A stretch of 5,113 nt of DNA from Candidatus Bathyarchaeota archaeon (lineage in GTDB: Archaea; Thermoproteota; Bathyarchaeia; TCS64), in assembly GCA_016934355.1 (NCBI GenBank), contig JAFGTA010000012.1, positions 1 to 5,113 on the forward strand, written 5' to 3'. The position numbers and the translations under genes were made by a program. Under the pieces are notes generated by a model, which worked only from the letters and a program-made list of their open reading frames with translations, made no database searches and was not told where the DNA came from. How positions within the stretch are numbered: position 1 is the stretch's first letter; every line of letters begins with the position of its first letter. This document shows, piece by piece, positions 1 through 4,919 of this stretch.

Positions 1-655
1 CGCCAACCACCACGATCTCCTCGGGCCTCGTGGAGCCGGGGAGCTCGGCTAAGACGTTTTGGGTCTTCAGCTTGGCCCTCTCGGACTGGACCATGATCCT
101 CGCCCGTTTGGCGCCGCTCTTGAGGAGCCTGAGCCCGTCCTCGAAGCTGATACGCACAGACGGATAGTTGCCGTAGTCCTTGCCCCGCGGGAACTGGCCC
201 CAGAAGTGTTTCCGCTGGACTTTGGGGTAGTTCTCGATGAATATGAAGCCCAAAGGCTTCCTCTTCGCGACCAGCTCGACGTTCTTCCGCTTCAGCCAGC
301 CTGTGACCACGATCTTGCCCTCTATCTCGGGGGTGAGGTACTCCTCGTCCGTGGTCTCAAGGTGGATGAGCTCACCCTCGACGCCGTCGGGGCCGGTGCT
401 GCCTATCATGCTCATCCCCTCGCACTCCACCGTCTCCCTGTACGGCGCGGTGACCTCAAGCATCTGTGAGGTGGTCCACCCCGTCTCGATCATGAACTCC
501 TGCCTCCAAGTCTTGAGGCCGAACCCCTTGAACACGGATTCGATGTAGTCGGCCGCAGCCGAGTCCTCGGGGCTGCCACCCGGCCTGGCACCAATCTCTA
601 CAGCCATCTTCTCGATGTGCTTGAACGCGTTCTCTCCGCTGAAAAGACCATTCAT
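1..655 (-). CDS. M28-family metallopeptidase, N-terminal part (cut by window edge)
   Basis: The frame is open from an ATG at 655 to the window edge, giving 218 residues with no stop. The start region (residues 8-38) has the helix common at the front of M28 aminopeptidases, with GARPGGS at 22-28 followed by an Ala-rich AAADYI helix. Residues ~70-195 are rich in beta strands (for example EGELIHLE, GKIVVTGW, PLGFIFIEN) and fit a PA-type insertion domain. From residue 200 comes NVLAELPGSTRPEEIVVVG, the strand that in this family runs directly into the first zinc ligand, G-x-H-x-D; the cut falls just before that His, so the metal site cannot be checked. No signal peptide or membrane helix is visible, so a cytoplasmic aminopeptidase or carboxypeptidase is likely. 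No in-frame ATG, GTG or TTG lies between the upstream stop and 655. It follows the membrane-ATPase gene after 37 bases with no clear TATA box, so co-transcription is inferred. Family call firm, substrate unknown. Confidence 0.85.
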   Translation of the reverse strand, partial: MNGLFSGENAFKHIEKMAVEIGARPGGSPEDSAAADYIESVFKGFGLKTWRQEFMIETGWTTSQMLEVTAPYRETVECEGMSMIGSTGPDGVEGELIHLETTDEEYLTPEIEGKIVVTGWLKRKNVELVAKRKPLGFIFIENYPKVQRKHFWGQFPRGKDYGNYPSVRISFEDGLRLLKSGAKRARIMVQSERAKLKTQNVLAELPGSTRPEEIVVVG

Positions 656-692: not shown

Positions 693-2657
693 CTACACCG
701 CTGTCTTGGTGGCGCCGCCGTGGTGGGTGAGCCTCGGCCTGACCTCCAGTATGAGCAGCGTGTCCGGCCCCAGGTTGGACTTATCCGCCCTGACTATGGC
801 CTGCCCGGTGTTCAGTTGGTGGGGCTCCACGGTGGTGCCGTCCACTATCTGCTTCAGCAGGCTACTGCTTATGACGTCGGATTTATGGAATATCTTGACG
901 TCGCTGCCCTTGATTACCTTGGGGTCCACGTCCTCGGGGAAGTGGGTATCCAGCATCAGCCACGTCCCTGCGTGCCGTTTCTTCCTGATCAAGTAGTTGA
1001 CGTAGTCTGTGAAGTCCTTGGATAGCCCTTTCCTGAGGTAGTCGTGGGCCTCGTTGATGACGAAGACGAACTGCTCACGGGCCGTGTTGTCGTTGTTTAT
1101 GAGGGCGCTTATCACAAGCATCATGACGCTGAACACGTCGTCCGGCTCCATCATTATCTTCCTTAGGTCGAAGACGTTGACGCCGCCTATGATGAGGTCA
1201 CCCATGAAGTCCCCCGCCACAAGGTAGTCCTCCAACGTCTCCAGCCTCATCATTGCAAAGCCCTTCTGGTTGGGGTTCAGGTCGCTGGCGTCCACGTTGC
1301 GGCGGATAGTGTTCAGCCCAAAGTCCCTGTCGTACTGGGTCTTCTTAATAATCTGGAAGATCTTCTTCACGTACATAGAGCCGCTCTTCTTACCAAGGCT
1401 CAGCACGTGAGGCCAGTCCTCCGCGGTGAGCCTAGTCGGGTTGATGCCTATCGGGTACACCTTCGTCCCGTAGTCGTCCTCAAACTTCTTACGCTCGTTC
1501 TGGTAGACAAAGGGGTCAACGAATATTCTGAAACCCGCCTTGGTTATGACCTGCCGCGGCCCCACGCCGTAGCCCTCCATGAGAACCGCCGCCTCCGCCC
1601 TGTCCGTGTTGGCGTCCGCGATGCTCCAGAACTCGCTCCTGAGGTCATCCCGGGGCTTATGGAACACAATGATCGTCGCCGGCTTACGCACCTGGCTGAT
1701 GCCCTGTATCGACTTTGAGAGAAGCATCTCGCTTATGACGCCTATGGTGTACCCCTTACCGCTTCCCTGCTTACCGCAGACGAACACGATATGCGGCTCG
1801 TTGAGGTCCACCGCAACCAAATCCTCGCCCGCCTTACCTATGATCCCCCACTGCTCTGGCATCCTGTCGCTGCCGAGGTAGATATCCGGCTGGACGGTGC
1901 TCTCGATGATCGGCTCAGGCTCTGGCGGGGTCACCGGTTCAGGCTCTGGCTCCGGCTCATGCTCAGGCTCTGGCTCAGGGGCGGTGGGCGCCGGAGACAC
2001 AGCCTCCATTGGCTCAGGTTCAGGCTCTGTCGCTGCCTCCGGCTCCGGGAAGTCGAAGAACAGGGCGGGTTCCTCCCCGTACGCCTGCGCCTCCATGAAA
2101 GGCCCGGGGGACGGCTCATACGTCTCCGCGGGTTCGGTTGGCAGGGGCTCCTCGGAGCCGCGGCTTCTCACCCACCCGATCAGTATGAACCTGACGAAGT
2201 AGACCACGATAGAGAGAGAAAACGAGGCGACGCAGAAGCCTACGACCCGGCTCTCAGACACCAAGCCGAACAACGGGTTCACGTCCCATGGATAGACCAG
2301 AGTCAAGTCGCTGTAGACTAAGGCGTCCAGCAGCACGTGCCCCCACGCCCCCAGCAGCCCCGCGACCAGATAGCGCCGCACGCCATCCCCCTGGGGCAGC
2401 CCCGTCGCCTCCATGACGCCTTTGGTTCGGCCCCTCAGCAAGTACATGACAAGAGCGAGTAACAGACCCGCTACGCCGCTGACGACGAGGCTGTGGAACG
2501 GCCCGTGCAGCGGCAGCTGAAGCCCGAGGAGGAACACCGCGAGCGGCTCAAGGTCCAGCATTATGGATGCCACTAGGAACGTGGGCGTGTCCAGCAACGG
2601 GTAAACTAGGAGGGCTACCAGGAGCGCTGGCCCCAAGTGCAGGGGTGTAAACGGCAT
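693..2657 (-). CDS. DUF457/YdjM-like membrane domain fused to HerA/FtsK-like P-loop ATPase
   Basis: This is a 654-residue, three-part protein. Residues 1-163 form a membrane domain with hydrophobic segments at about 9-22, 26-47, 56-74, 97-115 and 138-163. It carries the conserved polar residues of the DUF457 'metal-dependent hydrolase' (YdjM-like) family: H7, D35-x-E37, H51-x3-H55 and H107-x3-D111. Residues 168-258 are an acidic Pro/Glu linker. Residues 268-640 are a HerA/FtsK-superfamily ATPase: a GIIGK lead-in at 271-275, Walker A GKQGSGKG at 295-302, Walker B FVFVINEAHD at 530-539, a basic RKKRH stretch at 558-562 and a sensor-like LMLDTHFP at 567-574. The last helix is followed by R164 and R166, suggesting the ATPase faces the cytoplasm. 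No HAS-barrel of the HerA DNA pump is evident. G302 and N535 replace the usual Ser/Thr and Asp. The ATG at 2657 begins the family-typical MPFTPLHLGPALL. It could be a membrane-anchored DNA or protein translocase; substrate and activity are unknown. Confidence 0.85.
   Translation of the reverse strand: MPFTPLHLGPALLVALLVYPLLDTPTFLVASIMLDLEPLAVFLLGLQLPLHGPFHSLVVSGVAGLLLALVMYLLRGRTKGVMEATGLPQGDGVRRYLVAGLLGAWGHVLLDALVYSDLTLVYPWDVNPLFGLVSESRVVGFCVASFSLSIVVYFVRFILIGWVRSRGSEEPLPTEPAETYEPSPGPFMEAQAYGEEPALFFDFPEPEAATEPEPEPMEAVSPAPTAPEPEPEHEPEPEPEPVTPPEPEPIIESTVQPDIYLGSDRMPEQWGIIGKAGEDLVAVDLNEPHIVFVCGKQGSGKGYTIGVISEMLLSKSIQGISQVRKPATIIVFHKPRDDLRSEFWSIADANTDRAEAAVLMEGYGVGPRQVITKAGFRIFVDPFVYQNERKKFEDDYGTKVYPIGINPTRLTAEDWPHVLSLGKKSGSMYVKKIFQIIKKTQYDRDFGLNTIRRNVDASDLNPNQKGFAMMRLETLEDYLVAGDFMGDLIIGGVNVFDLRKIMMEPDDVFSVMMLVISALINNDNTAREQFVFVINEAHDYLRKGLSKDFTDYVNYLIRKKRHAGTWLMLDTHFPEDVDPKVIKGSDVKIFHKSDVISSSLLKQIVDGTTVEPHQLNTGQAIVRADKSNLGPDTLLILEVRPRLTHHGGATKTAV
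1911..2048 (-). repeat. Degenerate hexamer tract encoding Pro-Glu repeats
   Basis: Two blocks, 1911-1976 (residues 228-249) and 2004-2048 (residues 204-218), consist largely of Pro-Glu dipeptide codons. They are built from variants of a 6-base unit (GGCTCA, GGCTCT, GGCTCC or GGTTCA on the plus strand). About 27 bases encoding an Ala/Pro/Ser stretch separate them. The product is a flexible, strongly acidic spacer between the membrane domain and the ATPase. Such tracts can change length by slippage while staying in frame, since six bases are two codons. Confidence 0.8.
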
Positions 2658-2706: not shown

Positions 2707-4095
2707 CTACTTCTTCCTGAGGAACCCGTCGATTGCCGCCGCAGCCTTCTTCCCGGCACCCATGGCGCTGATGACAGTCGCCGCGCCCGTCGCCACGTCT
2801 CCGCCGGCGTAGACGCCCTTGAGCGTCGTCTCCATGGTCTCCTCGTCCGTGATGATGGTGCCATACCTCGTCACCTCTAGGCCCTCCGTGGTCTGCTGGA
2901 TTATCGGGTTCGGGCTCTGACCTATGGCGATGACCACGGTGTCCACGGGCAGCCTCCACTCGCTCCCGGGCATGGGCTCGGGGCGCCTGCGACCTGAGTC
3001 GTCCGCCGCGCCCAGCTGCATCCGTAGGAGCTCCATCTCCTTTACGTTCCCCCGGCCGTCGCCGATGAACCGCACCGGGTTGTTGAGCAGCGTGAATATG
3101 ATGCCCTCCTCCTCGGCGTTCTCGACCTCCTCGTGGCGAGCAGGCAGCTCGCTCATGCCTCGCCTGTAGATGATGTAGACCTTCTCGGCGCCTAGCCTGA
3201 GGCTGCAGCGCGCCGAGTCCATGGCGACGTTGCCTCCGCCTATGATGGCGACGTTCTTGCCGACGTCTATGGGGGTGTCGTACTCTGGGAACCTGTAAGC
3301 CTTCATGAGGTTCGTCCTGATGAGGAACTCGTTGGCGCTGTAGATGCCGTTCAGGTTCTCCCCGGGAACCCTGAGGAACCTGGGAAGCCCTGCGCCGCTG
3401 CCGATGAATACGGCGCTGAACCCGCTGTCGAACAGCTCCTTCACGGTGTAGAGCTTGCCGATCATGCTGTCGAGGTGTATCTCGACGCCCAGCGTCTTGA
3501 TGTACTCGACCTCGGCCTGCACAATCTCCTTAGGCAGCCTGAACTGGGGGATGCCGTACATCAGCACCCCTCCGGCGACGTGAAGCGCCTCGAACATCTC
3601 GACCTCGTGCCCCATCTTAACAAGCTCGGCGGCTGTCGTCAGCCCCGCGGGACCGGCGCCCACCACCGCGACCTTGAACCCGGTGGATTCAGGGACCACA
3701 GGCGTCTCGAGGCCCTTCTCGCGCTCATAGTCGGCTACGAAGCGTTCGAGGCGGCCGATTCCCACGGGGTCTCCCCTGATTCCGAGGACGCAGAACTTTT
3801 GGCACTGGTTCTCCTGTGGGCAGACGCGGCCGCAGATGGCTGGGAGCGCGTTGGTCTCCTTCACCTTCCAAGCGGCCTCGATGAACTTGCCCTCCTTGAT
3901 GAGCTTGATGAACGCGGGTATGTCGATGCCGACGGGGCAGCCCTTCATGCACTGGGGGTTCTTGCACTGGAGGCACCTCTCCGCCTCCTCTACCGCCATC
4001 TCATCTGTGAAGCCCTGCGCGACCTCGAGGAAGTTGTTGACCCTCTCGTCTACGCTCTGCTTGGGCATGTCGACCTGCGGCTTGTTGAACGCCAT
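2707..4095 (-). CDS. nfnB: NfnB/SudA-type large subunit: FAD, iron-sulfur NADPH oxidoreductase (GltD/GltA-like)
   Basis: The 462-residue length is normal for NfnB, SudA and stand-alone 'GltA' proteins. The N-terminal iron-sulfur region has eight Cys in the expected spacing: C41-x2-C44-x4-C49-x3-C53 and C88-x3-C92-x5-C98-x3-C102, with Glu95 in the CPQE context. An FAD-binding Rossmann motif GAGPAG lies at 146-151, followed by GGVLMYGIPQFRLPK at 175-189. A second nucleotide fold begins with IIGGGNVAMDSAR at 284-296, with YRRG nearby, which is typical of the NADP-binding domain. GGDV at 431-434 closes the FAD site. In characterised NfnAB the large subunit holds the bifurcating FAD and two 4Fe-4S clusters, oxidising NADPH to reduce ferredoxin and NAD, or the reverse. 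The start overlaps the nfnA stop by one base (TGATG), and GGAGG/GAGG lie 10 and 4 bases upstream, so translational coupling is likely. Glutamate synthase small subunit is the alternative, but no large subunit is adjacent. Confidence 0.92.
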   Translation of the reverse strand: MAFNKPQVDMPKQSVDERVNNFLEVAQGFTDEMAVEEAERCLQCKNPQCMKGCPVGIDIPAFIKLIKEGKFIEAAWKVKETNALPAICGRVCPQENQCQKFCVLGIRGDPVGIGRLERFVADYEREKGLETPVVPESTGFKVAVVGAGPAGLTTAAELVKMGHEVEMFEALHVAGGVLMYGIPQFRLPKEIVQAEVEYIKTLGVEIHLDSMIGKLYTVKELFDSGFSAVFIGSGAGLPRFLRVPGENLNGIYSANEFLIRTNLMKAYRFPEYDTPIDVGKNVAIIGGGNVAMDSARCSLRLGAEKVYIIYRRGMSELPARHEEVENAEEEGIIFTLLNNPVRFIGDGRGNVKEMELLRMQLGAADDSGRRRPEPMPGSEWRLPVDTVVIAIGQSPNPIIQQTTEGLEVTRYGTIITDEETMETTLKGVYAGGDVATGAATVISAMGAGKKAAAAIDGFLRKK

Positions 4096-4919
4096 CAGTC
4101 CTCTGCCTCCCTGTTGTAGACAACCATGGCAATCTTCTCCTGCGGGTTGTAGAGCCTCATCCTCATGATGAGCTCGTCGAAGTCCACCTGATGGCCGTCG
4201 AACTCTGGGCCGTCAACGCAACTGAACCGGGTGTCACCGGCGACGGTGACGCGGCAGGCGCCGCACATCCCCATGCCGTCCACCATTATGGGGAAAAGGT
4301 TGACGTTCGTAGGAATCCCGTAGGGTAGGGTCCTGTCGCAGAGGTTCTTCTGGAGGCTCGTCGGCCCGATGGTGAACACGTGGTCGAATGCCTGCTTGCC
4401 GAGGAGCTCGTCCACTATCTCCATGCCGTTGAGGCCGTAGCTGCCGTCGTCTGTGCAGATGTAAGCCTCGTCCGCGGCCTCCTTCAACTCTTCCTCAAGC
4501 ATCACGTGGTCTTTGTTCCTGAACCCGAAGACTGCCGTGACGTGGTTCCCCGCCTCCTTGAACGCCCTGATCTGGTACAGCATGGCGCCGACGAAGACGC
4601 CTCCGCCGACGCAGAGAATATTGCCGTAGTCTTTGATCTCTGTGGCGTTGCCGAGTGGACCCGCGAAGTTCAGTATCTCGTCGCCGACGCCGAGCGCCCC
4701 CAGCTCGGTGGATGACTTGCCGACCTCCGCGAAGTATATGAGCACGGTTCCCTCCTCGGGGTCCGTGCCAGCGACTGTGATGGGGAGACGTTCCCCTGTC
4801 TCCTTCGCCCTGACTATAACGAACTGGCCCGGGACTGCCTTGTGGGCGACGGCGGGGGCGTGCACGTTGAACATCTTGACGTTGGGGGTGAGCTCTTGCT
4901 TCGTAACTATCTTGTACAT
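4095..4919 (-). CDS. nfnA: NfnA/SudB-type small subunit: FAD, 2Fe-2S ferredoxin-NADP reductase-like
   Basis: This 274-residue protein has the ferredoxin-NADP reductase layout. A beta-barrel FAD domain occupies residues 1-95, with the flavin motif R44-L-P46-I-T48. An NAD(H)-binding Rossmann domain follows at ~98-200, starting ILCVGGGVFVGAM, with TDDGSYG further on. A C-terminal 2Fe-2S region has D214, C219, C222 and C234 (DGMGMCGACR, then FSCVDG). Three Cys plus one Asp is the ligand set described for NfnA, which supports this identity over the four-Cys dihydroorotate dehydrogenase electron-transfer subunit PyrK. In the known complex it passes electrons between NAD(H) and the large-subunit flavin. 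The glycine-rich loop reads GGGVFVGAM, not the more usual GGGVG-x-AP type. The ATG at 4919 is preceded by GGTGA at a 4-base spacing, so the start is secure. It is the first gene of the nfnA-nfnB operon. Confidence 0.92.
   Translation of the reverse strand: MYKIVTKQELTPNVKMFNVHAPAVAHKAVPGQFVIVRAKETGERLPITVAGTDPEEGTVLIYFAEVGKSSTELGALGVGDEILNFAGPLGNATEIKDYGNILCVGGGVFVGAMLYQIRAFKEAGNHVTAVFGFRNKDHVMLEEELKEAADEAYICTDDGSYGLNGMEIVDELLGKQAFDHVFTIGPTSLQKNLCDRTLPYGIPTNVNLFPIMVDGMGMCGACRVTVAGDTRFSCVDGPEFDGHQVDFDELIMRMRLYNPQEKIAMVVYNREAED

Follow-up and report, generated by a model that had tools for sequence, protein, structure and literature searches.

HerA-type ATPases are best known from intracellular pairings with nucleases and other soluble effectors. 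The question raised by the locus described here, on a 5,113-nucleotide stretch of DNA from an uncultured Candidatus Bathyarchaeota archaeon (the window), is what such an ATPase might do in one chain with a putative membrane enzyme that, by its predicted topology, has an outward-facing active site. Among the papers listed for DUF457, YdjM, HerA/FtsK and membrane-bound metal-dependent hydrolases, none on a YdjM-HerA fusion was found; the protein consists of known parts in a new combination, with an altered ATP site.

Layout and predicted topology of the fusion protein

As originally predicted, one uninterrupted frame joins the membrane domain to the ATPase, running for 654 codons from an ATG on the minus strand (693..2657, stop codon included). 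Residues 1-166 (2160..2657, minus strand) make up a hydrophobic, helical domain of the YdjM/DUF457 type, residues 167-254 (1896..2159, minus strand) a Pro/Glu-rich linker and residues 255-654 (696..1895, minus strand) a HerA/FtsK-fold, Mad8-like P-loop ATPase. Confidence in the structure model of the 654-residue protein was moderate, with low values in the linker up to about residue 244. Linker length between aligned columns ranged from 37 to 118 residues (median 73) among 45 relatives. The conserved metal-type residues of the membrane domain span 2325..2639 of the minus strand, where the codons of H7 (2637-2639), D35 (2553-2555), E37 (2547-2549), H51 (2505-2507), H55 (2493-2495), H107 (2337-2339) and D111 (2325-2327) are located.

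The orientation of the membrane domain was indicated by the distribution of charge over 45 aligned rows, with mean numbers of Lys plus Arg of 5.3 in the loop at residues 74-95 and 3.5 at residues 156-172, as opposed to 0.0 at the N-terminus, 0.3 in the loop at residues 44-57 and 0.6 in that at residues 113-135. By the positive-inside rule, positively charged loops tend to lie inside the cell. For the predicted five-pass domain, this bias would put the N-terminus on the outer face and the linker and ATPase in the cytoplasm; the short loop at residues 19-24, which is inside by this topology, carried almost no positive charge (0.04), neither helping nor excluding it. In this orientation, the outer parts of helices 2 and 4 would face outward together with H7, H51 and H55, suggesting that the metal-type residues lie on the side of the membrane opposite the ATPase, a point absent from the original prediction, as were the three replaced motor motifs described below.

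The membrane domain and the conservation of the fusion

The N-terminal part proved to be related to YdjM/DUF457, as first proposed, rather than being a mere anchor. Thus, Pfam YdjM (PF04307) was matched at E <= 0.01 by 28/28 aligned N-domain rows, of which 7 came from fusions and 21 from standalone proteins, 27 being distinct. The N-domain of the window protein by itself scored 23.6 bits against the Pfam cut-off of 29, and many relatives carried a precomputed PF04307 label. The feature of YdjM/DUF457, a His/Asp/Glu set within a multi-helix membrane domain, was present with all seven residues, membrane insertion being predicted; H7, E37, H51, H55, H107 and D111 occurred in 27/27 distinct rows and D35 in 26/27, in fused and standalone forms alike. 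Standalone YdjM/DUF457 proteins of Bathyarchaeia, which resemble the fusion in this residue set and in domain length but are without an ATPase, were noted in 46 of 256 Bathyarchaeia genomes at E <= 3e-28, and some part of the fusion profile was matched in 87 of the 256 at E <= 0.001.

In the available part of PMC8557891, YdjM is reported to have profile kinship to phospholipase-C-type and HET-C domains with 6/7 catalytic residues retained, is proposed as a phospholipase and is found in toxin proteins. We infer that the His/Asp/Glu set is a metal site at which a phosphoester, for instance that of a lipid head group, is cleaved. No PDB fold match was found for the N-domain, no kinship was found by hhalign between it and 11 Bathyarchaeal Zn_dep_PLPC rows, and Zn_dep_PLPC (PF00882) was matched by only 1/28 N-domain rows. 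In a Pfam search of the same class, PF00882 exceeded its cut-off in 37/256 genomes, a count that includes YdjM-type hits, those of two genomes (G222 and G214) overlapping the YdjM-type gene of the fusion profile. Secreted-looking Zn_dep_PLPC proteins with a WSNGGYS start behind a hydrophobic leader were also noted (L132-L150).

Relatives of the fusion were collected by two protein searches, each with scoring limited to the candidates that shared most words; the best 120 of 149 matches and the best 120 of 183 were taken, the second search, with ATPase rows, adding three, for a set of 123 listed proteins that includes the window protein. Among these listed matches, the N-terminal motif set occurred within the first 200 residues in 94/123 (C-terminally truncated in a few cases), the N-terminus was clearly different in 11/123 (P0112-P0117 and P0119-P0123), and the remaining 18/123 were truncated or departed slightly from the N-terminal pattern. 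Few of the listed matches had source names; apart from a single Promethearchaeota and a single Thermoproteota label, these mostly read Bathyarchaeota or Bathyarchaeia. Eight loci, every one titled Bathyarchaeota, were found in a scan of genome contigs. The fusion is therefore not unique to this assembly, nor is it an assembly accident, since dozens of relatives have the joined form. The two halves, normally separate proteins according to the original prediction, were also found apart: standalone N-domains exist, as do related ATPases with other N-termini.

Among the 256 Bathyarchaeia genomes, the ATPase was found with a strong score in eight and with weak matches in six more. All eight belonged to one order (8/32) and one family (8/27) and had one ATPase copy each; the whole fusion protein was present in six, while that of G249 was cut off by the end of its contig and the ATPase of G006 was preceded by a run of N. 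In a sample of 398 genomes of the phylum, 59 matched at E <= 1e-5, of which only G006 did so strongly, the others being at E 2.4e-9 or weaker. Mean pairwise divergence was 24% for the ATPase as opposed to 50% for the membrane domain. No phage match and no confirmed relative on a viral contig was found. The source names attached to P0085 and other relatives conflict (many YbcI, a DUF457 family, one DptH and one DUF4184), each covering one half of the fusion or a distant relative.

The ATPase and its altered ATP site

Three motifs of the ATPase differ from the usual form, i.e., Walker A, GKQGSGKGY (residues 295-303, 1749..1775, minus strand), with Gly302 where Ser/Thr is usual, Walker B, VFVINEAH (residues 531-538, 1044..1067, minus strand), with Asn535 where Asp/Glu is usual, and the arginine-finger and sensor-1 stretch (residues 558-574, 936..986, minus strand), which keeps R561 but has His572 where Gln is usual. 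The family motifs were accordingly GKxGxGKGY, NEAH and DTH, as compared with the usual GK[S/T], [D/E]EAH and xTQ. In the 45-row family alignment, KGY, NEAH, DTH and R561 were present in 45/45 rows, with Gly302, Asn535 and His572 constant and K301, E536 and R561 invariant. Among the 123 listed relatives, NEAH occurred in 120 and DTH in 120, the pattern going unmatched in 3, and GKSY was seen in two (P0064 and P0097). Replaced motor residues that are constant across a family present a clear biochemical puzzle.

Bacterial Mad8-type proteins had GKS, DEAH and SQ. HerA-type proteins of the fusion-bearing genomes had EEAH with TQRP or SQRP, and GKS was found in the P-loops of L061-L063, L065 and, in an unusual setting, L060; a second DUF87 type in the same genomes had GKT, LEEA and, where uncut, TQ. 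The three replacements of the fusion family were common to relatives with other N-termini and no membrane domain, so that, judged from sequence comparison, they most simply predate the membrane fusion.

A Glu after Walker B is a feature of the HerA/FtsK superfamily. An arginine finger upstream of strand 4 and Gln as sensor-1 are given as further features in the text available from PMC10853773. Of these, the arginine finger (R561) and the Glu after Walker B (E536) were present and invariant, while the sensor-1 Gln, like the Walker A Ser/Thr and the Walker B Asp/Glu, was replaced. The fold of the ATPase matched those of HerA, VirB4, DndH-C, TrwB and FtsK, several HerA-effector complexes being among the matches. 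Thus, the ATPase is a HerA/FtsK relative by fold but, because His572 replaces the sensor-1 Gln, not a canonical member. Compared with canonical HerA, it has in common the fold (residues 255-649), the catalytic Glu and the arginine finger, and differs in its preceding membrane domain, the HerA of the same genomes being separate proteins with EEAH and TQRP or SQRP.

A closer relationship was indicated by the PADLOC model mad8 (PDLC04140), which matched 45/45 family members (best E 3e-18, window protein 3.4e-11), whereas PADLOC HerA models matched them more weakly. In a translated plasmid search, identity over 99-100% of the query was 28-30% for four bacterial records, and a haloarchaeal record was found at 20%. 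In three of the bacterial loci, the ATPase was the C-terminal part of a 1,845-1,858-residue protein, and a Ser/Thr kinase was encoded two genes upstream. When PADLOC was applied to five genes of the Bacteroides finegoldii locus, the kinase matched mad6 best, the next gene mad7 and the large gene mad8, and the specificity subunit matched mad5, though a type II specificity model better; the gene content of MADS (methylation-associated defence) as given here follows PADLOC model names and record annotation. Mad8-type ATPases of MADS-like operons were collinear with the fusion over 99-100% of 400 residues and ended in the same RPR[VL]TxHGG tail, which in the window protein is a conserved stretch of 15 residues (640-654, 696..740, minus strand; RPRLTHHGGATKTAV) whose outline is common to Mad8-type ATPases. 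They differed from the fusion in their length, in their GKS/DEAH/SQ motifs and in their kinase-containing operons, no such operon being present in the window. MADS-like gene sets of this kind were noted on plasmids of Piscinibacter (L116), Bacteroides finegoldii (L117) and Hymenobacter (L118), the first of which adjoins Tn7-like transposition genes.

Of the 49 ATPases placed in a tree, the 24 from fusions formed one clade (100/100) that was sister (99/99) to two winged-helix rows, the 35 rows with altered motifs joined (100/99), and these adjoined three MADS-like rows (98/97); branches were long and placement unsure for G219, Haloplanus and some others. The superfamily assignment of the original prediction thus stood as to fold, but the alignments and tree place the ATPase on a side branch adjoining Mad8-type ATPases, apart from plain HerA. 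The two sister proteins, P0112 and P0113, carry the replaced motifs of the fusion and have an HTH_45 winged helix where the fusion has its membrane domain; no hydrophobic segment was found in them. In P0114-P0117 and P0119-P0123, the ATPase lies behind other long N-terminal regions that, by a simple cut-off, are without hydrophobic segments; among the eight of these covered by Pfam scans or labels, none had a named N-terminal domain. A distant Bathyarchaeal relative in G219 (L056:5465-7264) has canonical GKS, DEAH and TQ motifs and carries the RPR-HGG tail; with a hydrophobic stretch that follows a run of N, it is possibly another membrane-linked Mad8-like ATPase.

Gene neighbourhood and possible roles

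When genomes were surveyed for the domain order and its neighbours, as the original prediction had suggested, a fixed locus by M28 peptidase and RFC clamp-loader genes was found in several of the eight. Directly downstream of the fusion, the start of an M28-type peptidase gene (2..655, minus strand, running off the window) is a conserved neighbour, present in the window, L001, L005, L006 and L007. RfcS and then RfcL followed further downstream in L001, L004, L006 and L007 and were not shown by L002 and L008, while the window, L003 and L005 end before the position where these genes might lie. Upstream in the window are a GltA/SudA-like flavoprotein with an Fe-S domain (2707..4095, minus strand) and a DHODB/SudB-like flavin and Fe-S subunit (4095..4919, minus strand); this GltA/SudB-like pair was also present in L001, only GltA was visible in L003, and a CoA-transferase was found upstream in L004-L007. 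The corresponding region of G244, from the same family, contains GDH, SudB, GltA, a 106-residue frame, RfcS and RfcL, without fusion, M28 or winged-helix genes. The fusion gene therefore looks like one kept in place within its clade rather than a mobile one, with L002 and L008 as exceptions. No gene of a MADS operon (kinase, methylase or other mads) was recognised in the window or among neighbours that were labelled or scanned by methods other than PADLOC, and for this reason the fusion was not filed as MADS. No conjugation or secretion genes, the usual neighbourhood of type IV coupling proteins and VirB4, were seen in the labelled or scanned subset of neighbours.

The reading that we tentatively prefer, though it may well be wrong, is that of an ATPase switch, tethered to the membrane and responsive to DNA, that acts on an outward-facing, likely metal-dependent hydrolase. 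The predicted cytoplasmic ATPase, presumed to form a ring, would sense DNA and ATP, its state would control the predicted hydrolase across the membrane, and the hydrolase would in turn cleave its phosphoester outside. Contact with DNA is inferred from the nearest relatives, since these carry a winged helix or sit in operons of the DNA-defence type, and the available part of PMC10853773 offers a precedent in defence systems that have captured HerA/FtsK domains. Retention of the metal-type set in both fused and standalone forms was counted for the switch, as were the charge bias, the kinship of the ATPase to HerA-fold and Mad8-type proteins and the replaced motor motifs alongside invariant K301, E536 and R561; a linker of such variable length is more in keeping with a tether than with a rigid drive. 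The same reading is weakened by the N-domain having neither Zn_dep_PLPC profile kinship nor a PDB fold match, by the scarcity of positive charge in the loop at residues 19-24, and by the replaced motifs, which are not specific to membrane coupling because relatives without a membrane domain share them. The stable chromosomal place and the absence of other recognised mads genes nearby do not favour a role in DNA defence, and nothing about lipids or DNA sensing can be read from the neighbouring M28, RFC and oxidoreductase genes.

FtsK consists of membrane helices, a long acidic Pro-rich linker and a C-terminal motor of HerA/FtsK fold. Since this layout is shared by the fusion, whose ATPase matched FtsK, TrwB and VirB4 by fold, a somewhat doubtful but close rival is a membrane-anchored pump, in which a ring motor at the membrane would pull or export DNA, with the metal-type site as a side activity; rfcS-rfcL downstream in four loci agrees with it. 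Unlike FtsK/SpoIIIE, however, the fusion has a metal-type membrane site and has no gamma domain (no Pfam match at E <= 1, the protein ending at the RPR tail), 248/256 genomes of the class are without the fusion ATPase, which argues against a general segregation factor, and conjugation or secretion genes were absent from the labelled neighbours. In the family, other residues stand in for the Walker A Ser/Thr, the Walker B acid and the sensor-1 Gln, and the ring-forming machine moving DNA or protein that was first proposed is thus an extrapolation, the ATPase being without three canonical motor residues. A switch is preferred over a fast pump because these replacements suggest altered ATP use. 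The Ser/Thr that coordinates Mg and the acid of Walker B are lost in 45/45 rows, which would suit an envelope enzyme with a scaffold, i.e., an ATPase that is no longer a motor and binds nucleotide only to cluster the membrane enzyme, but this is the least probable of the readings considered, as the ATPase is better conserved than the membrane domain and K301, E536 and R561 are invariant, which together suggest a working nucleotide cycle. Kinship to Mad8-type ATPases, relatives with swapped N-termini and the phospholipase and toxin associations of YdjM (PMC8557891, as far as available) are in keeping with an anti-virus effector, whose ATPase, in the manner supposed for Mad8-type systems, would recognise invading DNA and whose membrane half would damage the membrane and so stop infection. 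Such an effector is nevertheless rather improbable, given a fixed chromosomal site beside housekeeping genes in several genomes, a single copy per genome, the lack of phage or confirmed viral-contig matches and the absence of other recognised mads genes among the labelled or scanned neighbours.

Returning to the switch, its broadest form would be a new class of transmembrane signalling machine, in which an ATPase ring of defence-type origin, its ATP site rebuilt, reads DNA in the cell and across the membrane drives a metal-dependent hydrolase on the outside, as a stable chromosomal function in one Bathyarchaeia family. This broad form is unlikely. If the predicted pairing of the ATPase with an outward-facing membrane enzyme is right, it would show a route by which a defence-type ATPase can become part of the everyday biology of archaeal cells, and the activity of YdjM/DUF457 proteins could be tested through the partner controlling them.

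Between the GltA-like gene and the fusion, 50 bases (2657-2706 of the window) contain an A+T-rich, TATA-like stretch noted by eye, and the fusion gene may thus have its own promoter.
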